Assembly: GCA_016787725.1 (NCBI GenBank)
Contig: JAEUTZ010000021.1
Location: forward strand, 1 to 64,000
Length of the DNA stretch: 64,000 bases
Direction of reading: 5' to 3'
DNA from: Cyclobacteriaceae bacterium
GTDB lineage: Bacteria; Bacteroidota; Bacteroidia; Cytophagales; Cyclobacteriaceae
The notes below the pieces were generated by a model. It worked only from the letters and a program-made list of their open reading frames with translations. It made no database searches and was not told the origin of the DNA. Positions within the stretch are counted from its first letter, which is position 1. Every line of letters begins with the position of its first letter. The position numbers and the translations under genes were made by a program. Positions 35,929-59,177 of this stretch are shown piece after piece.

Positions 35929-36903
35929 GTGAAGAATAAAGAATTTAAAGTCGGACTGTTTGTAGCCCTGTCGCTCGTATTGCTTTATTTCGGATTCAAT
36001 TTTTTAAAGGGAATAGACTTCTTCTCAACAACAAATAAATACTATGTTGTTTATGAGAACATTGACCAATTAGCAGTTTCCAACCCGGTTTTGATCAACG
36101 GTTTTGCCGTGGGTCGTGTAAGTCGTATCGCCATCCTGCAGAAAAAACAAAACAAAGTATTGGTTGAATTGATGATTGATTCGGATATTCAGTTAGGCGA
36201 TTCTACCAAAGCAATTTTAAATAGCGATTTCCTAGGCAGTAAATCTATCCTCTTGTCGATCGGAAAGATATCCAAGCCTCTTCAACCGAAAGACACGCTA
36301 ATCGCGGAAGTTGCCAAGGGCATGCTTGATGTTTTATCGGAGACCGCGACCCCTGTGGCCGATAACTTACAAACCACCCTTCGAAAATTCAATACCATTC
36401 TGGATAACTTGACCAAGAACTCCAGACAATTGGATTCTATGTTCCTCACCTTGCAAGAAACACCCCGCTTGCTTAACGCCACATTGATTAATGCCAATGG
36501 CAAAGTGGATGAGCTTTCCGTTAACTTTAAATTAGTAGCCGATAACCTCAACGGTAGTTTGCAGGAACTAAAACCTACCCTCGCTAACTTTCGTCAGCTC
36601 TCCGATTCATTGAAACGAATGGAATTGAATCAAACCATTACGGCCGCCAAACAGACACTTACGAAACTTAATACTACGTTGGATAAGCTGAGTTCGGGAA
36701 ATAGTACGATGGGTCGGTTGTTAACAGAGGATTCGCTTTATGTTAACCTCAACAAATTAATCCTTAGTATGGATACCCTCGCCCGTCATTTTGATGATAA
36801 CCCGAAACACTTCATGGCACCGCTGGGCAAGAGCAAAAAGAAAATTGATCGTGACCGGAAGCAGGAAGAACAGCAGAAGGCATCTTCAAAGGAAAATAAG
36901 TAA
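35929..36903 (+). CDS. MlaD/MCE-domain lipid-transport protein
   Basis: A 324-residue inner-membrane-anchored protein. One N-terminal span (VGLFVALSLVLLYFGF) is followed by an MCE domain (about 35-115: YYVVYENIDQLAVSNPVLINGFAVGRV) and a long helical coiled region, ending in a Lys-rich tail. Such proteins bind phospholipids between inner and outer membranes. The start codon is GTG at 35929, 5 bases after the amidase stop, so the genes are probably cotranscribed. MlaE/MlaF partners are not in the window. Confidence 0.87.
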   Translation: MKNKEFKVGLFVALSLVLLYFGFNFLKGIDFFSTTNKYYVVYENIDQLAVSNPVLINGFAVGRVSRIAILQKKQNKVLVELMIDSDIQLGDSTKAILNSDFLGSKSILLSIGKISKPLQPKDTLIAEVAKGMLDVLSETATPVADNLQTTLRKFNTILDNLTKNSRQLDSMFLTLQETPRLLNATLINANGKVDELSVNFKLVADNLNGSLQELKPTLANFRQLSDSLKRMELNQTITAAKQTLTKLNTTLDKLSSGNSTMGRLLTEDSLYVNLNKLILSMDTLARHFDDNPKHFMAPLGKSKKKIDRDRKQEEQQKASSKENK

Positions 36904-36925
36904 TTACCCAATACGTTCGAAAGGC

Positions 36926-38551
36926 ATGGATCTGGAGTTCAACAAAAATGAAGACCAGTTGAAGCAACTTTGTTCGCAGCTAAAGGCGCGTGCGAAAAAG
37001 ACAAAATTGGGAGGTGGGGAGAAGAAAATGGTGGAGCAGCATCAAAAGGGCAAACTTACAGCCCGTGAGCGTATTGACTATCTGATCGACAAAGGTTCTG
37101 AGTTTTTGGAGATTGGCCTTTTTGCCGGTGAGGGAATGTATGCAGAACAAGGAGGTTGTCCTGCCGGAGGGGTCGTAACCGGGATCGGGTTTGTTCATGG
37201 TAGACCTTGTGTTATCGTTGCCAACGATGCCACCGTAAAAGCCGGGGCCTGGTTTCCCATTACTGCAAAAAAGAATTTACGGGCGCAGGAGGTAGCCATG
37301 GAAAACCGTTTACCCATCATTTACCTGGTAGACAGTGCCGGAGTCTTTCTGCCGATGCAGGATGAGATCTTTCCGGATAAGGAACACTTTGGCCGCCAGT
37401 TTCGAAACAACGCCCGCATGTCCTCCATGGGCATCGTTCAAATCGCGGCCATCATGGGCAGTTGTGTAGCGGGGGGTGCTTATTTGCCGATCATGTCAGA
37501 TGAAGCGATGATCGTGGATAAGACGGGATCAATTTTTCTGGCAGGATCCTATCTGGTAAAAGCAGCCATTGGCGAGGAAATTGACAATGAAACGCTGGGC
37601 GGTGCCACCACTCATTGCGAGATTTCTGGTGTTACCGATAATAAATTTCCAAACGATAAAGCCTGCCTTGACCACATCCGTGATTTATTTGACAAGCTAG
37701 GACAACCTACTCTGGCAGGGTTCAGTCGCATAAAGGCCAGTCCGCCCAAGGAAAAGCTTAATAAACTTTATGGTCTCTTGCCGAACGACCGGGTTAAGCC
37801 TTATGATATGATGGACATCATCAAATGTCTGGTGGATGACTCCGAGTTTGATGAGTACAAGGCCTTGTATGGAAAAACCTTGGTGTGCGGTTTTGCCCGG
37901 ATTGATGGTTGGGCCGTTGGGATCGTTGCCAACCAGCGCAAGGTGGTAAAAACAAAAAAAGGCGAAATGCAGATGGGTGGTGTCATCTATTCTGATTCCG
38001 CAGACAAAGCGGCCCGATTTATAATGAATTGTAATCAGCGCAAAATTCCGCTGATCTTTTTGCAGGACGTAAGTGGCTTTATGGTAGGTAGTAAAGCTGA
38101 GCAAGGTGGAATTATTAAAGATGGAGCCAAAATGGTGAACGCTATGGCCAACTCCACCGTGCCGAAGTTTACGTTCATTATCGGGAACTCGTATGGAGCC
38201 GGAAATTATGCGATGTGTGGCAAGGCCTATGATCCGCGATTGATTTACGCCTGGCCTACCGCCCAGATTGCGGTGATGAGTGGCAACTCGGCAGCAAAAA
38301 CGCTGTTGCAGATTCGGGTAAGTAGCTTGAAAGCTCAAGGAAAAACCATTACACCCGAAGAGGAGGCCCAGCTTCTTAAGGAAATTACCGACCGGTACAA
38401 CGATCAGTTGAGTCCTTATTATGCAGCCGCCCGTCTATGGGTGGATGGCGTTATCGATCCGGTGGAGACCCGCAAGGTAATTTCGATCGGGATCGAAGCA
38501 GCCAACCATGCACCGGTGGAAAAATTCAATGTTGGAGTTATTCAAACCTAG
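36926..38551 (+). CDS. Acyl-CoA carboxylase carboxyltransferase (beta) subunit
   Basis: A 541-residue carboxyltransferase from the ATG at 36926, with two crotonase-like halves. GSCVAGGAYLPIMSDE, FLAGSYLVKAAIGEE, LGGATTHCEISGVTD and GNSYGAGNYAMCGKAYDP are typical of the methylcrotonyl-CoA carboxylase-like branch more than of propionyl-CoA carboxylase. It would transfer CO2 from biotin to an acyl-CoA. No biotin-carrier subunit lies nearby. The frame's extension to 36791 overlaps the MlaD gene and is not supported. Confidence 0.87.
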   Translation: MDLEFNKNEDQLKQLCSQLKARAKKTKLGGGEKKMVEQHQKGKLTARERIDYLIDKGSEFLEIGLFAGEGMYAEQGGCPAGGVVTGIGFVHGRPCVIVANDATVKAGAWFPITAKKNLRAQEVAMENRLPIIYLVDSAGVFLPMQDEIFPDKEHFGRQFRNNARMSSMGIVQIAAIMGSCVAGGAYLPIMSDEAMIVDKTGSIFLAGSYLVKAAIGEEIDNETLGGATTHCEISGVTDNKFPNDKACLDHIRDLFDKLGQPTLAGFSRIKASPPKEKLNKLYGLLPNDRVKPYDMMDIIKCLVDDSEFDEYKALYGKTLVCGFARIDGWAVGIVANQRKVVKTKKGEMQMGGVIYSDSADKAARFIMNCNQRKIPLIFLQDVSGFMVGSKAEQGGIIKDGAKMVNAMANSTVPKFTFIIGNSYGAGNYAMCGKAYDPRLIYAWPTAQIAVMSGNSAAKTLLQIRVSSLKAQGKTITPEEEAQLLKEITDRYNDQLSPYYAAARLWVDGVIDPVETRKVISIGIEAANHAPVEKFNVGVIQT

Positions 38552-50137: not shown

Positions 50138-51472
50138 TTAAAAGAAGATTTGATATTGAACAACACACTGCTTTCTTCGACCTTCGCGAATCAGGTCTGT
50201 TCCGACTTGATTGTAATAGGGGCGGTCTTGCACATCCAGCGTAATTTTGCTGGTATGCCCATTCAATAGCCAGTTAACTCCTACGTGATACACATTCATG
50301 GGCTTATCCAGGCGGTTATAGTCAGCACTCATTATTGACAAATAGGGCATTAATGTTCCCTCGCCCAACAAGTCCCGTTTCATCAGGTAGGCAAGTTGTG
50401 AATACCAGGCTGATCCGGTTCCAAACATGGGAAAGGCATTGCCTTGACTTCCTGCCGGGTAGGGTCCGCCCACTGGTACAGAGGAAGCTGGATTCATAAT
50501 TCCGTTGTATCGAAGGTAGCCAGGACCAAAATCGTAATTGAAGTAGCCTGCATAGGCATTTATAGCCGTACCTTTTTCTTTATTAACTGGAGCATCGTAG
50601 AAAATAGCAGCAGAAAGAAGATTCATAGCATGATAAACAGTGTCAACCGATTCGCGTGTCCAGGTAGCGTTGCCTTGCGAAATAAATCCTGCCTCCAGAT
50701 TCAATACTCTCTTTTTACCCAAATAGGTCCCCGTCATATATGGAGTTGTGTGTGGTTCCTTATCAAAGAGATTATAAATAAAAAATCCCTGGTACTGCAG
50801 GGTATGCCCCCGTTGGCTAAATGTAGCATTGGAAGATAACGGAGGTGCTGGCTGACCGTTCGTTGTGATCGGGAAGGGGTCACTGAGTGCAATCCTGTAG
50901 TCTAATTTGCCAACTTGACCGCGCGCATACACACTTAGTTTTCTGGAAAATTCATCGGTTTGATCAACGGTGGCCTGTGCAAAAACCGGTACATCCAGGG
51001 TGCTAATGGTGCCAATGCTTGGCTGACTGAATCGCGATAATCCGTTGGTAATGGTAAGGCCTCCTCCTACAATCAGATTTTCGCTCCCTTGTGTAATACG
51101 ATATTCACCCAAGGCATCATGAAAGAAAACTTGGAATTTTCGATTGCTTGCATTTTGCGATAGGTAATTGAAATTATTCTGTCCAAACTGAAAATAAAAG
51201 AATACTCGGTCAGTCAACTGACCAAAGAGCTGGAAACGTGTTCTTCTTAAACCAATGTCAAATGTCTCTGTTTTTGGCACGGAAAGCACCATCGTTCCCG
51301 GGTTGCTTTGATTGTATCGAAACCAGATCTGGTTGAGGAAGGTGGCTTTTATATAATGATCGCCAACGTCATTTAGATTAAGTTTTAATTCGGTAATATC
51401 TTTTGACTTTTCCTGTGCGTTGACTAAAAATCCGGCACAAAGAAAAGCCAATGTAACAAGTAACTTGTTCAT
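50138..51472 (-). CDS. Outer-membrane porin, phosphate-selective porin (OprO/P)-like
   Basis: A 444-residue exported protein with signal LCAGFLVNAQ and barrel-like pattern. Signatures of the OprO/OprP-type porin family include DIGLRRTRFQLFGQLTDRVFFYFQFGQNNF and FFHDALGEYRI at the N-terminal part, and it ends in VVQYQIFF, with a terminal aromatic as in outer-membrane barrels. It lies 27 bases downstream of the SulP gene and before a terminator, so it likely supplies an anion (bicarbonate or sulfate) pathway across the outer membrane for SulP. Substrate is inferred. Confidence 0.72.
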   Translation of the reverse strand: MNKLLVTLAFLCAGFLVNAQEKSKDITELKLNLNDVGDHYIKATFLNQIWFRYNQSNPGTMVLSVPKTETFDIGLRRTRFQLFGQLTDRVFFYFQFGQNNFNYLSQNASNRKFQVFFHDALGEYRITQGSENLIVGGGLTITNGLSRFSQPSIGTISTLDVPVFAQATVDQTDEFSRKLSVYARGQVGKLDYRIALSDPFPITTNGQPAPPLSSNATFSQRGHTLQYQGFFIYNLFDKEPHTTPYMTGTYLGKKRVLNLEAGFISQGNATWTRESVDTVYHAMNLLSAAIFYDAPVNKEKGTAINAYAGYFNYDFGPGYLRYNGIMNPASSVPVGGPYPAGSQGNAFPMFGTGSAWYSQLAYLMKRDLLGEGTLMPYLSIMSADYNRLDKPMNVYHVGVNWLLNGHTSKITLDVQDRPYYNQVGTDLIREGRRKQCVVQYQIFF

Positions 51473-51499
51473 GGCTAATTTTTTTAAGGACGAGAAGTT

Positions 51500-53707
51500 T
51501 TACTCTTGCGTGACTATGTTGGGCTGAGGCTGGAGTATGAGTGACACAAAGTCTTCAGCAAATTTTACGGTATACAAAATTTCATCCGGCTCCAGTAAAT
51601 TTCTTTTCTTGTAGAAGAGAAGCCGGTTGCGATGGCATTCAATATGCATCTCTTCACGGTTTTCTAAAAACCGGATCAACGGTTCCGAAAAGAAAAGGCG
51701 CACATTCGCTTCATGCACCCCGCGCAGATAGTATTTCTCAGAAAATTTTGGATGATTATCGAAATCTATATCCCTGCCTGAAATACTTTCAAATAGTTTT
51801 GACCACAATCCTTCCGGTTCCAGGGCGAAGTCAGGAATCAGTGCATCAATCTCAGAAACCTGTATAATGGTGATGGAAAGTTCTTGTTGCGCCTGTCGCG
51901 CACCTTCAAGTAAGGTAATGTCTGCAGCTTCCATCTTTGCCATGTCTGAATACTGAATCAGAATATTTTCCTCATAGGGTATTTTGTTGCCATGGGATAT
52001 TGGAAAATCTTTATACTTTAAGGAAGCTCTTACACGTTGCGGATAGAACTGCCATTCCTGACTTTCGGCAAACTTACGCAACTCCAATTGGCGTGGACTA
52101 AGTTTAATTTCAATCCTGTTCTGGTGATCGATAGAAAATTTGCGGGCAGCTAGCGGGTGATTTGAAAAGGGTTTAAAGCGGTCGAACCCGACCGATACTA
52201 CCGCACCACCGGCATGGGTGCATTCGTCTTCGATGTGATGCAAATACTCCATAAAACTGTGATCCAACAAATGGGCGTCCGAGAAGTCGACCACAATTTT
52301 TTTGCTCAAATCCAGTTTGGAGAACACCTTTTTGAAGCCAAGCAAATTTGAGAACAAAGCTGATTCTTTAATCTTTATAAGATATTCATCCCCCTGATCA
52401 CTGAGCTCGTAATGGGCTTTAAATAGGCTTCGAAATGGAACCCCATTGAGTACATGAAATACGAACTTCATTAATATTCCAGCGGCCACGCCAATTAACA
52501 AATCAGTAGAAACGGTAACAATGATGGTTACTACGAAAATGACAAGTTGTTCTGATCCAATTTTGTAGGTTTTAAAAAATTCATTCGGGGAAGCTAACCG
52601 GTAGCCAACGGCAATCAGTAAGGCGGCCAAAGCGGTATTGGGAATCATTTCGATTACCGGGATGAACAGGAGCATCGCGATCAATAGGAAGAATCCATGA
52701 AAGAAGTTGCTCCATCGGGTACGGGCTCCAAAGGAGATGTTGGCCGAACTTCGCGCGACTTCCGAAATCATGGGCAACCCGCCCAATGCCGCTGAGAGTG
52801 CATTGCCGGCACCTACAGCCATCAAATCTTTATTCGGATTAGAAATGCGTTTCCACGGATCCAGACTATCAATGGCCTTAACTGTAAGCAATGATTCCAG
52901 GCTGTTAACAAATAGGAACATGAGCACATATTTCCAAAACACAAACGTACCAATCATTCCAAAGCTTGCATTGAACCCAACGTCACCCCAGAAGTCACCG
53001 ATCTTCACCATGTCAAAGGCAGGTTCTGTATGTTTGAAGTCCATTAGCCACGCGAGCGGGATGGTGACCAACAGCACCACAATGGGGGCGGGTACTTTCT
53101 TCACTACTTTTCCTTTTAATAAGGGCAAACCAAAAATGATCAGCAAACTGATCATGCCTATTAGGGTAACCCGCACGTCTTCATGGACAATGGAATCCGG
53201 AATCATCTGAAATAGCTCCAAAGGTTCTTTTCCTTTTAGGGTTGCGGGATCAATTCCTAACAGAATATGAATTTGTTTGGAAAAGATGATTAACCCGATA
53301 GCGGCTAGCATACCATGAACTACTGAATGTGGAAAGAAATCACTGAGGGAACCAAAGCGCAGCCAACCCAAAAAGATTTGAATAAATGCGGCAACAAGAA
53401 TGGCGCCTAAAGCAAAATGCCATCCTTCCAGGCCTCCACCCATTTCCATTACGGCTCCGGCACAGATAGTGATTAAACCGGCAGCGGGGCCCTTAATGGT
53501 AAGTCGGGAGCCTGCAAAAAAGCTTACAAATAATCCGCCAACCATGGCGGTAAGTACCCCCATAGCCGGAGGAAACTCACTGGCTTTGGCGATACCCAAA
53601 CTTAAAGGGAGGGCAAGAAGAAAAACAAGGAACCCGGACACCGCATCGCCTGTCCAGTGTTGCTTCAATCCGGCCCATCCATCTTTCGGAATTTCTACTG
53701 TTTTCAT
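51500..53707 (-). CDS. SulP-family anion transporter with STAS domain
   Basis: A 735-residue inner-membrane transporter. About residues 12-430 form the 12-14 helix SulP core (GIAKASEFPPAMGVLTAMVGG, FFAGSRLTIKGPAAGL, GNALSAALGGLPMISEVARS); a STAS regulatory domain follows (about 450-540: FSDAHLLDHSFMEYLHH), and then a second, unusual soluble region of about 190 residues (560-735) containing SDMAKMEAADITLLEGARQAQQEL. SulP members carry bicarbonate, sulfate or other anions. Its placement opposite dabAB and before a porin favours bicarbonate (inference). Two small hairpins lie in its leader. Confidence 0.85.
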   Translation of the reverse strand: MKTVEIPKDGWAGLKQHWTGDAVSGFLVFLLALPLSLGIAKASEFPPAMGVLTAMVGGLFVSFFAGSRLTIKGPAAGLITICAGAVMEMGGGLEGWHFALGAILVAAFIQIFLGWLRFGSLSDFFPHSVVHGMLAAIGLIIFSKQIHILLGIDPATLKGKEPLELFQMIPDSIVHEDVRVTLIGMISLLIIFGLPLLKGKVVKKVPAPIVVLLVTIPLAWLMDFKHTEPAFDMVKIGDFWGDVGFNASFGMIGTFVFWKYVLMFLFVNSLESLLTVKAIDSLDPWKRISNPNKDLMAVGAGNALSAALGGLPMISEVARSSANISFGARTRWSNFFHGFFLLIAMLLFIPVIEMIPNTALAALLIAVGYRLASPNEFFKTYKIGSEQLVIFVVTIIVTVSTDLLIGVAAGILMKFVFHVLNGVPFRSLFKAHYELSDQGDEYLIKIKESALFSNLLGFKKVFSKLDLSKKIVVDFSDAHLLDHSFMEYLHHIEDECTHAGGAVVSVGFDRFKPFSNHPLAARKFSIDHQNRIEIKLSPRQLELRKFAESQEWQFYPQRVRASLKYKDFPISHGNKIPYEENILIQYSDMAKMEAADITLLEGARQAQQELSITIIQVSEIDALIPDFALEPEGLWSKLFESISGRDIDFDNHPKFSEKYYLRGVHEANVRLFFSEPLIRFLENREEMHIECHRNRLLFYKKRNLLEPDEILYTVKFAEDFVSLILQPQPNIVTQE

Positions 53708-53765
53708 TTTTTAGTGGGAGAACTGCTTCACCCGTTTTGAGATTGTTAAATAAGCAATTTGAAAG

Positions 53766-53807
53766 GGTATTCATAATCAGGAATACCAATACAGGCCGGT
53801 TGCCTGT
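53766..53807. repeat. Tandem inverted repeats upstream of SulP
   Basis: GGTATTC / GAATACC (53766-53772 and 53781-53787) and ACAGGC / GCCTGT (53791-53796 and 53802-53807) form two adjacent small stems between the 117-aa protein gene and SulP. They lack a long T-run, so they may be regulatory rather than terminating. Confidence 0.45.
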
Positions 53808-53822
53808 TACCAAAAATGAAAA

Positions 53823-54176
53823 TCAGATGAGGAGTACCCGATGTAACTGGTACAACGCAGGTTGGGTATTAAATCGCTCGCGGGGCAATGACCACGTAAT
53901 GCGGGCAATTTCAAATTTTTGTAGTTGATTGAATACTTCAAAACAGCAACAGGTAGTCAGAATATCGTCTTTGCCTTCTTTTTCTTCACTCGTATTTTCT
54001 TCAAAGAGGAAATGAGCAAGTAAGTCGAGGGTAGGTATAGTTTCCGTTAACTGATTTTTAGTATAGACTTGATTGTGGGGTTGTGTAGCGGCTGTCAGTA
54101 CCGATGGCACAAACAACTCCGCACAAAAAAGCAGGATGGCAAAGGCTTTCACAATTCGATTATACCTAAACCCCAT
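53823..54176 (-). CDS. Exported 117-residue protein A, paralogous to the plus-strand protein B
   Basis: A 117-residue protein with a signal peptide (FVPSVLTAATQ) and no recognised family. The mature part has HFLFEENTSEEKEGKDD, then a triple-cysteine TTCCCFEVF and the terminal VLLI. The protein at 54378-54731 is also 117 residues, has QFLFEEKEKEEKG at about the same position and ends SLLI, so I infer that they are distant paralogs flanking the same promoter region. It is 115 bases upstream of SulP on the same strand. Confidence 0.6.
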   Translation of the reverse strand: MGFRYNRIVKAFAILLFCAELFVPSVLTAATQPHNQVYTKNQLTETIPTLDLLAHFLFEENTSEEKEGKDDILTTCCCFEVFNQLQKFEIARITWSLPRERFNTQPALYQLHRVLLI

Positions 54177-54194
54177 GAAACGGAGGATTTTTTA

Positions 54195-54202
54195 CAAAGG
54201 TG
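54195..54202 (-). promoter_or_regulatory. Weak -7-like element before protein A
   Basis: On the minus strand CACCTTTG resembles TAnnTTTG with T replaced by C, 18 bases before the ATG at 54176, and looks like the plus-strand element at 54365. No clear TTTG is seen upstream. Confidence 0.3.
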
Positions 54203-54343
54203 TAATTATTTTTTTGAATTCTGCTAAATCTTGTCCTGGATAGGATTAGCAACCGTTTGTTGAGAGTCATTTGGAGCAAAAAATAGCGGGCCTTTTGGAA
54301 CCCGGTCCTCATTACCACCATTAGTAGCAACGTTTAGCCCTTG

Positions 54344-54372
54344 TTTGTGGATGAGGGATTTTTATACCTTTG
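54344..54372 (+). promoter_or_regulatory. Promoter of the protein B-dabAB arm
   Basis: TTTG (54344-54347) and TACCTTTG (54365-54372), 17 bases apart, match the Bacteroidota promoter. The -7 element ends only 5 bases before the ATG at 54378, so the transcript may be nearly leaderless for protein B. Confidence 0.6.
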
Positions 54373-54377
54373 TATTA

Positions 54378-54731
54378 ATGAACAAGAGAAATTTTTTCCG
54401 CACACTCATTAGCCTTGTGCTGGTTTTCTTTCTGTTCGCGCCTATACTCTTAGGTTCATTGAGTGGAGGTTGGGGGGGGCCAAGTAAGCACAACACCCTG
54501 GCTAAATCCTCGGGTTCGCATACGAAATCCGACAGCCAGTTTTTGTTTGAAGAAAAGGAGAAAGAGGAAAAGGGTACCGAGAATGCTTTATCCATGCTCC
54601 CCATCATGTATGAGGTAGCCACCCTATCGACTTCATCTACCGACTCAATTATCTTGTTCCCCACGATTGACCACGTGGGTTTTTTCTTCGATACTCCGAT
54701 TTATCTCTCCAAGAGGTCTCTGCTGATTTGA
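54378..54731 (+). CDS. Exported 117-residue protein B, paralogous to protein A
   Basis: From the ATG at 54378, a 117-residue protein with a signal sequence (LISLVLVFFLFAPILLG) and no recognised family. A glycine-rich stretch (LSGGWGGPSK) is followed by QFLFEEKEKEEKGTENAL, then a hydrophobic C-terminal portion ending SLLI. It shares with protein A (53823-54176) the length, the FLFEE acidic motif and the end. It precedes dabA by 76 bases, with a hairpin terminator between, so it lies in the dabAB leader transcript. Confidence 0.6.
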   Translation: MNKRNFFRTLISLVLVFFLFAPILLGSLSGGWGGPSKHNTLAKSSGSHTKSDSQFLFEEKEKEEKGTENALSMLPIMYEVATLSTSSTDSIILFPTIDHVGFFFDTPIYLSKRSLLI

Positions 54732-54753
54732 TTAAGGCTTTCATTTTTTAGTG

Positions 54754-54775
54754 AGCCCTTGCGGGCTGCTTTTTT
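54754..54775 (+). terminator. Terminator/attenuator-like hairpin in the dabA leader
   Basis: AGCCC (54754-54758) and GGGCT (54763-54767) pair with a TTGC loop, then GC and TTTTTT (54770-54775). Only 32 bases separate it from the dabA ATG at 54808, and no promoter-like element is visible in that gap. Confidence 0.65.
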
Positions 54776-54807
54776 CATTATCAAATCATAGCGTTAAGCT
54801 ACCTACT

Positions 54808-57303
54808 ATGAAAGCTACTACTGAAACCCTATATAATGAGCATGAACTTTTGCATGCGTTGAAACATTACTTGCCTGCACAAGCTCCCCTTAAAGATTTT
54901 ATTCATCACAATACGCTTCATGCTTTTCAACATTTAAAATTTAGCCATGCTATTTATAGCGCGTCCACCATTTTCGGATACCGCGTTTCACTTTCGTTGG
55001 CAGAATACCGGGCCTGCTTTAAACAAGGCCGCATTCAGGAGGCTGTGATTGATCGGATCATTACACAAAAAAAGGGTTCCGGCCAATTACCAATTTGGAA
55101 AGAGAAGATGTTAACGGGCCACTATCAGAAGGGAAGCCCAAGAATTGGATTGCTGCGCGCAGCCTGGAAACGCGAATACCAGATTGATCTCGACTCGCTG
55201 GTACATCCGCTATTATTCCGCGTGCTATGTTCCTATCTCGATCAGGGAATTTCGATATGGAATTTTCCGGTGTGGCACAAGGGCTTGATTGCCTCTATTC
55301 GCGAGATGGAGCGAGTGAGTTTTTCCAGTTTTTTCCGCGGTAAACGAGCGAAGAAGCTCTTGCTTGGAGGTCAGGCGGATATGCGCCACTTGTTGAAAAT
55401 CCTGGTGGGCGATGAGAAACTCTATAAGCGATATTTATTTGATCAACAATTTGCGCATCAGGGTTGGTCAGGAATGGTAAGTACCGTAGAGGATCAACCT
55501 CAAACATTACTCGACCACAAAAAGATTTCTCTGCACGATCTGATCACGTTTGAATTATTATTAGAGATTGACGCATTGGATAGTGTGTTTGGTACAGAAT
55601 GGAAACCCTTGTGTGAAACAGTCAGGGAGCCGCCCATTGATCTGTTTGCCGAAGTGCCCGTGACCGAATTGGATGAAGTGACCACCCTATGGCAGGAGGC
55701 GTTTGAATGGAGCTATTATGATGAAGTATTACGCGGAATACAAAGCGTGCCTCCGGGTAATGGCAAGCAAAGTAGCACTACGTTTCAGGCCCTCTTTTGT
55801 ATTGATGACCGTGAATGTTCCTTGAGACGGTATTTGGAAAAGGTAGACCCTCATTGTGAAACCTTTGGTACTCCTGGTTTTTTTGGAGTTGAATTTTTCT
55901 TTCAACCGGATCATGGAAAATTTTATACCAAGCTTTGCCCTGCACCGGTTACTCCAAACTATCTGATTAAGGAAGTGGGGGTTCGCAGGAAGCATGAAAG
56001 GGATGCCCACTTTACAAAACATACCCACTCGCTTTTCCGGGGATGGCTCATTGCACAAACACTCGGTTTTTGGTCAGCATTTAAACTCTTCCTTAATATT
56101 TTCAAACCCTCAGTCAGTCCGGCTATGGCATCGTCCTTTCGGCATATGGAAAAGGAATCCCGATTGACGATCGAGAACAAGACGTTACAGAACCGTGAAA
56201 ATAATTTACAAATCGGGTTTACCGTTCCGGAGATGGTAACGCGGGTGGAGGGTTTGCTGCGAAGTATCGGATTGGTGGAGAATTTTGCACCGGTGATTTA
56301 TGTAATTGGTCATGGATCAAGCAGTGTAAACAATCCTCATTATGCGGCCTATGATTGCGGTGCCTGTTCTGGCAGGGCAGGTTCTGTTAACTCGCGCGTG
56401 ATTTGCTACATGGCGAATCATTCTGAAGTGCGGGCCCTGTTACGGGAAATCGGTATTGCGATTCCGGATGCTACGCAATTCGTAGGAGGGTTGCATGATA
56501 CCACCCGCGATGAAATTATGTTCTTTGATGAGGATTCATTAGTGCCTGCTAATAAAATTAATCATCGGGTAAATGAAGAAATATTTGTTCAGGCCCTGCA
56601 CTTTAACGCCAAGGAACGCTCACGAAGGTTTGAATCAATCAATACGGATTTAAGCCCGGATGAAATTCATGAGCATGTTCGCATTCGTTCTGTATCACTC
56701 TTTGAACCACGACCAGAGCTTAATCATGCTACCAACTCACTTTGTATCATAGGGCGCAGATCATTAACAAAGCATCTTTTTCTTGATCGCAGATCGTTTC
56801 TGAATTCTTTTGACTATCGGGTGGATCCGGAAGGGAAGTACCTCTTACCCATTTTGAAAGCAGCAGCCCCGGTATGTGGTGGAATTAACCTGGAGTATTT
56901 CTTTTCTCGCGTAGATAACCAAAAGTTGGGTGCTGGAACCAAGCTTCCTCACAACGTAATGGGGTTGATTGGCGTAGCCAACGGAATTGATGGTGATTTG
57001 CGACCCGGTTTACCCAGCCAGATGATTGAGGTACATGACCCTGTTCGGCTGATGGTCGTAGTGGAGCATTTTCCGGAAGTGGTTCTCCAGACCATTCAAA
57101 AATCTCCGGAGACCTATGAGTGGTTCATCAATGAATGGGTCCATCTGGTAGCGATTGATCCGCTCACACATGAGTTGTTTTATTTTAAAGAAGGCCAGTT
57201 TACGAAGTACAACACCCTCAAGATTTCAGTTCCTCAGGTGGATGATGTGATGTCGCTTCTTGAAACTCATACTGAAAATATACCGGTTCATCTTATCCTG
57301 TAA
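54808..57303 (+). CDS. dabA: Probable inorganic-carbon transporter subunit DabA
   Basis: An 831-residue protein of the DabA (DUF2309/UPF0753) family, which takes CO2 or bicarbonate into the cell together with DabB. The four residues essential in Halothiobacillus DabA are present with the same spacing: Cys331 and Asp333 in FCIDDREC, His502 in VIGHGSSS and Cys517 in YDCGACSG; these bind zinc in a carbonic-anhydrase-like site. The start is the ATG at 54808 (MKATTETLYNEHELL). The N-terminal HHNTLHAF motif is also typical. It is coupled to dabB. Confidence 0.93.
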   Translation: MKATTETLYNEHELLHALKHYLPAQAPLKDFIHHNTLHAFQHLKFSHAIYSASTIFGYRVSLSLAEYRACFKQGRIQEAVIDRIITQKKGSGQLPIWKEKMLTGHYQKGSPRIGLLRAAWKREYQIDLDSLVHPLLFRVLCSYLDQGISIWNFPVWHKGLIASIREMERVSFSSFFRGKRAKKLLLGGQADMRHLLKILVGDEKLYKRYLFDQQFAHQGWSGMVSTVEDQPQTLLDHKKISLHDLITFELLLEIDALDSVFGTEWKPLCETVREPPIDLFAEVPVTELDEVTTLWQEAFEWSYYDEVLRGIQSVPPGNGKQSSTTFQALFCIDDRECSLRRYLEKVDPHCETFGTPGFFGVEFFFQPDHGKFYTKLCPAPVTPNYLIKEVGVRRKHERDAHFTKHTHSLFRGWLIAQTLGFWSAFKLFLNIFKPSVSPAMASSFRHMEKESRLTIENKTLQNRENNLQIGFTVPEMVTRVEGLLRSIGLVENFAPVIYVIGHGSSSVNNPHYAAYDCGACSGRAGSVNSRVICYMANHSEVRALLREIGIAIPDATQFVGGLHDTTRDEIMFFDEDSLVPANKINHRVNEEIFVQALHFNAKERSRRFESINTDLSPDEIHEHVRIRSVSLFEPRPELNHATNSLCIIGRRSLTKHLFLDRRSFLNSFDYRVDPEGKYLLPILKAAAPVCGGINLEYFFSRVDNQKLGAGTKLPHNVMGLIGVANGIDGDLRPGLPSQMIEVHDPVRLMVVVEHFPEVVLQTIQKSPETYEWFINEWVHLVAIDPLTHELFYFKEGQFTKYNTLKISVPQVDDVMSLLETHTENIPVHLIL

Positions 57304-57308
57304 GGAGT

Positions 57309-59177
57309 ATGAGTCTTTTACTGCAAATCTTCATCTTTCTACCGGTACTTGGGTTCATCATCAGTTTGTTGATCCCTGGCAATAAGGAGACGCTGCTTTC
57401 CAAGATCGCATTTAGCACCGTAGGCCTGCACCTGGCTAGCTTTCAGATATTTTTAGTCTATTGGTTATGGAAAGGCCATCCAACTCTTAACCTGAAGGAA
57501 ATCGTGATTTTTGAGACGGATCATTATGAATTCTTTGTTGATTTTTATTTTGATAAGATCACGGCCACCTACTTATTTGTTGGTTCGTTGCTCACCTTTC
57601 TCGTTACAATTTATAGCCGCTACTATTTGCATCGCGAGCCGGGGTATAAGCGATTCTTTAACACGATTTTATTCTTCTATCTGGGGTACACCATCACGAT
57701 TTTCTCCGGCAACCTGGAAACCCTGTTTATCGGTTGGGAGGTACTCGGTATTTCCTCTTTCTTGTTAATTGCATTTTACCGCGATCGTTACTTGCCGGTG
57801 AAGAATGCGGTGAAAGTATTTTCGATCTATCGCGTGGGCGATGTGGGTCTGATCCTGGCGATGTGGATGAGCCACCATTTGTTTCATGAGAACATCACTT
57901 TTTTGAAACTCAGCAACTATGAGTTGGTGCACGAACATTTGCAAGCGCATAGCTGGATAGGAATCTTTATTTCGTTAATGATCTTGATTTCAGCGGCTGC
58001 CAAGTCTGCCCAGTTGCCTTTTTCTACCTGGCTGCCCCGGGCCATGGAGGGGCCAACCCCGTCCAGTGCGATTTTCTACGGTTCACTCTCTGTGCACATT
58101 GGGGTGTTTATTCTTTTACGAACCTTTCCGTTTTGGGAGCACCAACTTTCGGTACGCATTTTAATTGCTACGGTGGGATTGTTAACCAGTATTGTGGCGA
58201 CCACAATTGCCCGAGTTCAATCTTCCGTAAAAAGTCAGATAGCGTATTCTTCGATTGCTCAAATTGGACTTATATTTATTGAAGTAGCTGCCGGTCTCGA
58301 TTACCTGGCACTGTTCCACTTTGCAGGCAATGCATTTTTGCGCACGTATCAACTGTTGGTTTCTCCTTCGGTTGTCAGCTATCAAATTCGGGAACAGTTT
58401 TACAACTTTATACCCCGGCAACACACGCTCGAAGACTCCTTTCCAAAACGATTAGAGTATACACTTTACATGCTTAGTTTAAAGGAGTGGAATATCGATT
58501 CCTTTATGTACCGGTATTTGTGGAACCCTCTTAAATGGACGGGCCGCAAACTAAATTTTCTCGTAATGAATCAGGTGTTGTATTATCTTATTCCGATGTA
58601 TTTGATCGGATTGTTCTGTGTATATAATAAAGACCTTATTCCTGAAACAGTACTACACGCGTTGCCTATCGGCTTTAGTTTCATCGGACTGGTATTTGTG
58701 CTGAAGTCGTTTACGGAACGCATCCACGCCCGCATGAGCTGGCTTCTGGTAGTAATGAATCATTTTTGGGTAGCATTGGCAGTAGCCTTTAACGAAAATT
58801 TCAGTTTCAATGAAATCCATTTGTATCTCATCGGTGTGGCGATTTCAGGTATTGTTGGTTACTGGATATTGTTCAATATGAAACAACGGGAAGGTACGGT
58901 GGATTTGAATCAGTTTCATGGCTACTCGTGGAAGCATCCGAAGTTAGCGTTGGTCTTTTTACTGGCTTGCCTGGGTGCATCCGGGTTTCCCATCACCCCA
59001 ACCTTCATTGGGGAAGATTTGATCTTCTCGCACATTCACGAAAATCAGTTTGTGTTGGCCGCTTCGGTTGCGTTGAGCCTAATCCTGGATGGTCTTGCCA
59101 TCATCCGAATTTATGCGCGAATATTTCTAGGCCCGCATGTGAAGTCGGTGTATGAAATGGCTTATCGCTCCAGTTAA
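57309..59177 (+). CDS. dabB: Proton-conducting partner subunit DabB (ND5-like)
   Basis: A 622-residue inner-membrane protein with about 14-16 helices, homologous to the NuoL/MrpA-type antiporter-like subunits. Signatures are FIGWEVLGISSFLLIAFYR and AAKSAQLPFSTWLPRAMEGPTPSSAIFYGSLSVH, with the Lys and Glu residues of the proton path. It would let protons in to drive DabA. A strong Shine-Dalgarno AAGGAG (57302-57307) overlaps the dabA stop, just before the ATG. It is slightly longer than the usual 500-560 residues. It is convergent with phoH. Confidence 0.9.
   Translation: MSLLLQIFIFLPVLGFIISLLIPGNKETLLSKIAFSTVGLHLASFQIFLVYWLWKGHPTLNLKEIVIFETDHYEFFVDFYFDKITATYLFVGSLLTFLVTIYSRYYLHREPGYKRFFNTILFFYLGYTITIFSGNLETLFIGWEVLGISSFLLIAFYRDRYLPVKNAVKVFSIYRVGDVGLILAMWMSHHLFHENITFLKLSNYELVHEHLQAHSWIGIFISLMILISAAAKSAQLPFSTWLPRAMEGPTPSSAIFYGSLSVHIGVFILLRTFPFWEHQLSVRILIATVGLLTSIVATTIARVQSSVKSQIAYSSIAQIGLIFIEVAAGLDYLALFHFAGNAFLRTYQLLVSPSVVSYQIREQFYNFIPRQHTLEDSFPKRLEYTLYMLSLKEWNIDSFMYRYLWNPLKWTGRKLNFLVMNQVLYYLIPMYLIGLFCVYNKDLIPETVLHALPIGFSFIGLVFVLKSFTERIHARMSWLLVVMNHFWVALAVAFNENFSFNEIHLYLIGVAISGIVGYWILFNMKQREGTVDLNQFHGYSWKHPKLALVFLLACLGASGFPITPTFIGEDLIFSHIHENQFVLAASVALSLILDGLAIIRIYARIFLGPHVKSVYEMAYRSS

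Follow-up and report, generated by a model that had tools for sequence, protein, structure and literature searches.

Linkage of a SulP anion carrier, a second class of DabAB complex and small secretory leader genes in Bacteroidota

Overview of the locus

The window analysed here, 64,000 nucleotides from a Cyclobacteriaceae bacterium (assembly GCA_016787725.1, contig JAEUTZ010000021.1, positions 1 to 64,000), contains a two-armed locus (50138-59177) in which genes for a SulP-family anion carrier and an outer-membrane porin-like protein diverge from dabA and dabB. The linkage of SulP to DabAB is a conserved module, and the locus is probably dedicated to the supply of inorganic carbon and conserved as such in Bacteroidota. 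The source genome (4.21 Mb in 27 contigs, 99.99% complete) has a single match to PF10070, which lies in this dabA. The minus-strand arm comprises a leader open reading frame (ORF) at 53823-54176, the SulP gene at 51500-53707 and the porin-like gene at 50138-51472, and the plus-strand arm a leader ORF at 54378-54731, dabA at 54808-57303 and dabB at 57309-59177. The original prediction, made from the letters of the window, had placed SulP and a porin divergent from DabAB, and this layout is borne out by the ORFs and their profile matches: DabA, DabB, SulP and an outer-membrane-like protein are all present there, intact. Both leader ORFs had been overlooked.

In the mechanism that we propose, DabA, a zinc protein of beta-carbonic-anhydrase type, would hydrate cytoplasmic CO2 to bicarbonate, and ion flow through the antiporter-like DabB would drive this hydration one way, as has been proposed for DAB2 from its structure and mutants. 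SulP would carry bicarbonate over the inner membrane, and the porin, where present, would admit anions. Paired in this manner, DabAB and SulP would thus supply housekeeping carboxylases with bicarbonate from either dissolved-carbon form, and a secretory mini-protein gene at the head of each arm, co-transcribed with it, would regulate the genes downstream. The idea of an integrated inorganic-carbon locus survives in part: conserved linkage and the grouping of SulP sequences support a partnership between SulP and DabAB in this Rubisco-less genome, but the carriage of bicarbonate by DAB itself is not supported, since DAB2 of Halothiobacillus neapolitanus is described instead as performing CO2 hydration driven by the proton motive force (PMF; PMC13144422).

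Linkage and co-occurrence of SulP and DabAB

Two classes of DAB loci are distinguished here by gene order, AB (A then B, the class of the window) and BA (B then A). The gene order of DAB2 is presumably the opposite of that in the window. Among 292 genomes surveyed in the order, 75 contain PF10070. Of 42 AB loci, 33 have a SulP gene no more than 3.5 kb from DabAB, as does none of 15 BA loci, the 42 being those with at least 3.5 kb upstream and at least 2.5 kb downstream (loci with a short flank or unclear gene order were left out). SulP is downstream and co-directional in 16 of the 33 loci, upstream and co-directional in nine, and divergent in eight. A second, named set of loci was chosen by DabA similarity and has SulP nearby in 37 of 51; three genomes are common to both sets (L064/L141, L070/L134 and L075/L100). 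As to the two-arm arrangement that the original prediction wished to see in related genomes, SulP linkage thus recurs widely, the divergent form is found in the eight loci just mentioned, and a porin is near DabAB in 12 of the 42 order loci and 10 of the 51 named loci, both of which are undercounts because flanks end early. Six named loci combine SulP, a weakly similar carbonic anhydrase and DabA-DabB within a few kilobases. No publication on SulP beside DabAB in Bacteroidota was found among the matches listed.

At the level of whole genomes, in which at most three SulP candidates per genome were scored, a SulP of the DAB-linked type (dab-type) is present in 59 of 62 genomes with an AB DabA versus 46 of 230 without (Fisher p 7e-29, which overstates certainty because related species are not independent). 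Of the three AB genomes that lack it, one (G157) is 89% complete, one (G177) has a short DabA remnant and one (G240) has a DabB of 132 residues. Several observations weigh against a dedicated module: the 46 genomes that have the SulP without an AB DabA, the location of only 40 of 120 dab-type SulPs within 6 kb of an AB DabA, the nine of 42 AB loci with no SulP nearby, and the two carbonic anhydrases of the source genome, which could already meet its need for bicarbonate.

Leader genes

Each arm begins with an undescribed secretory-type ORF of a kind that recurs before such operons in Bacteroidota. The leader of the SulP arm (53823..54176, minus strand) encodes 117 residues with a hydrophobic N-terminus, an acidic middle and the tail PALYQLHRVLLI at the stop; that of the DabAB arm (54378..54731, plus strand) also encodes 117 residues in the same layout and ends in TPIYLSKRSLLI. 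The ratio of nonsynonymous to synonymous substitution rates (dN/dS) is 0.19-0.20 for the former against two relatives. Of the eight pairs for which the ratio could be computed overall, seven fall at 0.15-0.25 and one at 0.58; a further six, including that of the plus-strand leader of the window, are saturated. By fixed criteria (an ATG start, 85-160 residues, a hydrophobic N-terminus, five or more acidic residues within 14 and a gap below 330), leaders stand before 44 of 89 dabA genes, 13 of 21 SulP genes that come first, 4 of 11 divergent SulP genes and 7 of 12 SulP genes that adjoin a carbonic anhydrase, compared with none of 15 BA dabB genes and 12 of 724 further long ORFs in these loci. 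For dab-type SulPs located apart from DabA the figure is 3 of 20, one of them plainly no leader, and the scan found none in loci labelled Candidate Phyla Radiation (CPR), Planctomycetota, Methylococcaceae or Nitrosomonas that had enough upstream sequence.

Further comparisons used a hand-curated set of 60 leaders (59 distinct), from which eleven listed names (one entry being blank) and SulP tails had been removed by hand, to which looser candidates had been added, and in which two false ones were omitted; four of the removed entries (L109, L140, L161 and L162) carry proline-rich tails, and the plus-strand leader of the window starts nine codons too early in this set. Conservation is highest over the final 12 residues of the leaders, next to the stop. 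A tail motif, aromatic-x3-[RKHC], picked after the tails had been viewed, is present in 54 of 60 leaders versus 5.5 of 60 after shuffling and 281 of 2041 other small ORFs. Seven leaders that precede pairs of SulP and carbonic anhydrase have proline-rich tails instead (SPPPQA in the source genome).

Sequences resembling promoters lie before the leaders. TAnnTTTG is, we assume, the -7 box of Bacteroidota; in the window a box with one mismatch to it (CAccTTTG, 54195..54202, minus strand) precedes the SulP-arm leader, and a match (TAccTTTG, 54365..54372, plus strand) ends 5 nucleotides before the ATG of the DabAB-arm leader. The box occurs within 60 nucleotides upstream of the leader ATG in 32 of the 60 leaders, compared with a rate of 3.4% in random windows. 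No box was found in the 120-nucleotide stretches that follow their stops, which is consistent with a transcript shared with the following gene; each arm and its leader are probably co-transcribed.

The RNA between leader and dabA is predicted to be more folded than ordinary gaps (mean z -2.15, n=43, versus -1.07, n=120; p 2e-4). In the DabAB arm a predicted stem encloses the leader stop (54724..54788, plus strand), pairing TGATTTGAT at 54724-54732 with ATCAAATCA at 54780-54788, and within it is a terminator-like hairpin with a T run (54754..54776, plus strand). Comparable hairpins accompany 2 of 60 leaders versus 59 of 323 ordinary gaps, and transcription attenuation through intrinsic terminators was rejected as a general rule.

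The leaders are likely to be regulators of the genes downstream, as judged from their sequences and by analogy. That they are instead ordinary small secreted proteins, such as periplasmic subunits, is the strongest of the rival explanations considered here and a serious possibility, though it is not the reading that we favour. It would account for the purifying selection over the ORF and agrees with the occurrence of small HYC_CC_PP proteins before other operons, and perfect stems of at least 8 bp at the stop are only slightly more frequent than in controls (30 of 58 versus 120 of 285; stem lengths p 0.013); against it stand the maximum of conservation at the stop and the predicted pairing of the stop region with downstream RNA (P at least 0.5) in 31 of 58 leaders versus 53 of 285 controls, a result possibly influenced by the share of TGA stops (31 of 58 versus 46 of 285).

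As regulators, the leaders would resemble CutF, arrest-peptide upstream ORFs (PMC9973294, PMC10987492) and HYC_CC_PP (NF047658) in being small ORFs with a secretory N-terminus, a conserved tail, a co-directional downstream gene and an RNA stem at the junction. They differ in having carbon-uptake genes downstream and, in the window, a tail of the form P-L/F-F/Y-x3-R-x-I/L-L/R-I with no PP: the window tails contain a single proline only, so that a CutF-like PP in the last 15 residues is absent. The four sequence features by which arrest-peptide upstream ORFs were screened (PMC10987492), namely a small ORF of unknown function, a signal or transmembrane segment at the N-terminus, a conserved C-terminus and a spacer of more than 30 residues, are present in the leaders, with the signal judged by hydropathy only, and the downstream gene is not sec or yidC. 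The HYC_CC_PP model NF047658 does not match the window leaders, family models gave no match for leaders, the main text of the CutF paper contains no match for carbonic, bicarbonate or sulfate (PMC9973294), and no literature on leaders of carbon genes was found among the matches listed.

The leader class is not exclusive to carbon genes, since similar ORFs precede other operons and the 12 other ORFs counted above also have its features. A similar small secretory ORF precedes an apparent RND efflux operon (L041, 2888-4400), and HYC_CC_PP ORFs precede two presumed TonB receptors (L113 and L119, upstream of 5685 and 4600, respectively). These occurrences suggest a broad class of leader genes in Bacteroidota, and the AB and SulP operons point to a candidate new class of leader-controlled operons.

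The AB class of DAB complexes

The longest dabA ORF matches PF10070 over residues 35-797 (731.6 bits, cut-off 25), and the start that fits its homologs is the ATG at 54808 rather than the GTG at 54751, which gives a protein of 831 residues (54808..57303, plus strand). DabB (57309..59177, plus strand; 622 residues) is intact, as had been stated, and matches PF00361 (153.6 bits); both matches exceed their cut-offs, which places the pair in the DAB superfamily. The closest DabA in the named set, from which very near genomes were possibly omitted, is 80% identical and comes from a Cyclobacteriaceae metagenome-assembled genome (MAG). BA DabA proteins are 24-34% identical to that of the window.

DAB2 (PDB 9rd0; PMC13144422), the sole DAB returned by searches of the PDB, shares with the window complex the Cys/His/Cys zinc set and Asp-Arg dyad of DabA (C331, D333, R335, H502 and C517 in the window) and a NuoL-like DabB with equivalents of Lys235, Lys310, His339 and Arg182/Asp185. 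The spacing of the zinc ligands is as the original prediction gave it, 171 residues from Cys to His and 15 from His to Cys, compared with 173 and 15 in H. neapolitanus DabA2 (C351, H524, C539), and the three ligands are invariant in 118 of 118 AB DabA rows (115 distinct). Likeness to the studied enzyme holds for the zinc site but not for residues of the ion pathway.

In 115 of 115 AB DabB rows (112 distinct; 105 clusters at 95% identity), DAB2 residues are replaced as His260Tyr, His343Asn, Lys347Arg and Ile151Glu (Y257, N341, R345 and E144 in the window). In contrast, His, His and Lys are retained in 14 of 14 BA proteins of the same order, and also in six plasmid DABs of other phyla (Mesorhizobium, Haloarcula, Methylocystis, Nitrobacter, of which the second, complete DabB was used, Mycolicibacterium and Phaeobacter), which have Glu at position 444 of DabA and B-to-A order. 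No SulP is annotated within 3.5 kb of these six, whose gene tables are incomplete. The membrane-finger Glu444 of DAB2 DabA corresponds to Gln417 in the window; the position is Gln in 85 of 118 AB rows and acidic in one (L118), where the alignment is doubtful. Other differences from DAB2 are the SulP partner, the lack of Rubisco and the A-to-B gene order.

AB DabB is also longer, about 620 residues (622 in the window) versus 551 in DAB2, through an additional C-terminal part resembling TM12-13 (TM, transmembrane helix) with a GED motif and D570, which is Asp in 114 of 115 rows and Glu in one. Searched by itself, this C-terminal part gives a PF00361 match over positions 186-286 (32.8 bits against a cut-off of 21.5), and the predicted model has a broken helix there (544-558 and 564-574; pLDDT 87.7). 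DAB2 is described as substituting DabA Glu444 for Lys399/Asp400 of NuoL TM12b; the AB class therefore appears, from sequence and model, to retain a TM12-like helix of its own in DabB. Three points weigh against so distinct an ion path. The TM12-like view comes from sequence and a predicted broken helix, the fold comparison having spanned residues 1-416; the alignment of the C-terminal part with NdhF near the SKD motif is weak (independent E 27); and 11 of 15 BA DabA proteins of the order also lack Glu444, with Ser in its place, because of which the loss of Glu444 alone is no mark of another mechanism. Compensation for that loss by Asp570 was set aside as unproven, since those 11 proteins lose Glu444 without a DabB extension.

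Taken from aligned sequences, the AB complexes form a second DAB class, set apart from the studied DAB2 at the ion path: the zinc site is unchanged and the ion path should differ, with Tyr, Asn and Arg for His260, His343 and Lys347, no DabA acid at 444 and a TM12-like part of DabB bearing Asp570. That the complex is an ordinary PMF-driven DAB, in which Tyr, Asn and Arg do no harm and the proton path is that of DAB2, is a possibility of lesser weight than that of secreted subunits for the leaders. It is countered by the impairment of DAB2 on alanine replacement of His260, His343 and Lys347, as of the zinc ligands, the Asp-Arg dyad and DabB Ser256, Lys310, Ser316 and His339, and by the abolition of function by E444A or E444Q (PMC13144422; the changes described there do not include Tyr, Asn or Arg), and also by the invariance of the swaps over 115 rows in company with Glu144 and the extra C-terminal part. 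The DAB2 mutants define a proposed proton route; because the AB class keeps the catalytic site and consistently lacks residues important in DAB2, it is a natural experiment on the coupling between CO2 hydration and ion flow.

The AB class also occurs in records labelled Saccharibacteria, Kaiserbacteria, Planctomycetota, Nitrosomonas and Methylococcaceae, mostly MAG contigs whose labels are possibly wrong. A wider synthesis, in which an AB class found widely in Bacteroidota and sporadically in CPR, Methylococcaceae and other groups would power zinc-based CO2 hydration by another ion route, through a retained NuoL-like TM12 Asp and Glu144 of DabB in place of the His/His/Lys and DabA-Glu path of DAB2, and would in Bacteroidota form a unit with SulP (with a TtfA-like domain in some lines) and be switched by leaders that sense carbon supply or membrane energy, is speculative and rather doubtful as a whole; if true, these would be the first secretory nascent-chain leaders for inorganic carbon.

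Several variants of DAB loci were noted in passing. AB DabAB is found in CPR-labelled L135 (8977-13386), L156 and L142, from Candidatus Saccharibacteria (one complete genome, CP025011.1) and Kaiserbacteria (a MAG); no SulP was detected in the sequence retrieved for L135 and L142. Paired DABs stand side by side in L101, L167 and L170 (Planctomycetota MAG, Methylococcaceae), the neighbouring copies sharing 33-38% identity with the DabA of the window. The order also has a third group of shorter DabA proteins (L060, L065, L078, L081 and fragments), whose match to the first 45-48 profile positions is separate from that to the rest; Glu is kept at 444 in both aligned sequences (L060 and L078). Near DabAB in the plasmid loci are a DUF6671 protein in two of six (Mesorhizobium, L216 6832-7695; Mycolicibacterium, L220 130-948) and a cysD-annotated gene in Mesorhizobium and Methylocystis.

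The SulP carrier

The SulP protein (51500..53707, minus strand; 735 residues) belongs to its family by PF00916 (192.5 bits, cut-off 23.2). It had been described as a SulP with STAS and an unusual C-terminal region; the family match and about 200 extra C-terminal residues agree with this, but the STAS-like region is recognized by alignment to SLC26Dg (5da0), no STAS model having matched. In the tree, 77 dab-linked SulPs form one group (Shimodaira-Hasegawa-like approximate likelihood ratio test, SH-aLRT, 95), of which 73 bear Glu in the TM10 signature (PMISEVARSSAN in the window). This group adjoins one of 29 sequences that holds six SulPs fused to carbonic anhydrase and 11 of 12 adjacent to it; apart from one, the SulPs sampled were linked to carbonic anhydrase or DAB. 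Fusions of SulP with carbonic anhydrase were reportedly described by Felce and Saier in 2004. The window resembles them in its neighbouring SulP group and in having an enzyme of beta-carbonic-anhydrase type as partner, and differs in that the partner is DabA and that TM10 has Glu where the commonest carbonic-anhydrase-linked forms among those listed have Val; its chain has no carbonic anhydrase domain, and its C-terminal part no Pfam match.

That C-terminal domain (residues 514-735; 51503..52168, minus strand) gave no Pfam or Foldseek match in a first pass; on a second look a TtfA-like predicted fold emerged, with 9-11% identity to the structures of TtfA (PDB 6t84) and CCDC47, and it differs from these in being fused to an anion carrier. 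A search of PHROGs gave no match. The CCDC47 structures are, we take it, chains of 7tm3 and 6w6l.

Bicarbonate is most likely what the divergent SulP moves across the inner membrane. Comparison with BicA (PDB 6ki1), a member of the same family, did not settle the substrate: the Thr of the TM8 motif is kept (ESLLT versus DALLT), but its Asp is replaced by Glu and the substrate-site residues GAGAT by MISEV. These changes, with scores below cut-off for the NCBIfam BicA model NF050096 (108.7 versus 880 bits) and the NCBIfam sulP model (157.8 versus 380.45 bits), count against an assignment of bicarbonate. Carriage of another anion, such as sulfate or an organic acid, by a SulP that adjoins DabAB through a shared condition such as alkaline pH or salinity is the least probable of the alternatives: SulP substrates are indeed varied (PMC10880623), the BicA site is unconserved, the SulP type occurs in genomes without an AB DabA and two of the six plasmid loci, whose DabAB is of the other class, have a cysD-annotated gene nearby, but within the sampling stated carbonic anhydrase is the fusion partner or neighbour of the closest SulP group, SulP is near-obligate with AB DabA, and the neighbourhoods of 20 dab-type SulPs away from DabA contain a porin homolog in three and a carbonic anhydrase in one, their other neighbours, possibly including sulfate genes, having been given no family search.

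Carbonic anhydrases and carboxylases

The whole genome contains no Rubisco large chain, in agreement with the original prediction; the description as an apparent heterotroph is drawn from this absence, Rubisco being the one marker of carbon fixation covered by the search. The source genome encodes one beta- and one alpha-carbonic anhydrase and three SulPs, and the beta-carbonic anhydrase gene lies 23 bp from the second SulP. MpsAB of Staphylococcus aureus (PMC6689103, PMC8552792) is similar in that DabAB homologs are described as serving carboxylation in a heterotroph; the difference is that the source genome also holds its carbonic anhydrases and SulPs. The presence of a bicarbonate transporter together with a carbonic anhydrase has been said to make no sense in principle (PMC8552792). 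Mutual exclusion of DAB and carbonic anhydrase was nevertheless rejected, as beta-carbonic anhydrase is present in 48 of 62 AB genomes versus 165 of the other 230 (p 0.42). The AB class points to a carbon-supply system that is widespread among organisms most of which also have carbonic anhydrase, contrary to the idea that one or the other suffices. The bicarbonate is likely used by carboxylases; the proposal that it feeds an MCC-type enzyme of the window (acyl-CoA carboxylase, 36791-38551) found no backing, as nothing ties the module to that enzyme.

A second dissolved inorganic carbon operon was observed in the same genome on contig 26 (L174, 5047-7268), in which a leader ending in SPPPQA is followed by a SulP and then by the beta-carbonic anhydrase; six fetched relatives have SulP-carbonic anhydrase fusions of 716-793 residues.

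The porin-like protein

The distal gene of the SulP arm (50138..51472, minus strand) encodes an outer-membrane porin-like protein of 444 residues with a weak match to NCBIfam ExtI (53.8 bits, cut-off 150). Its earlier description as an OprO/P-like porin is not sustained by Pfam, which gave no match to the window protein; PF07396, the OprO/P family, is absent from it and among five relatives was found in one at E 0.016, below the cut-off. Porin homologs stand beside SulP in part of the DAB loci.

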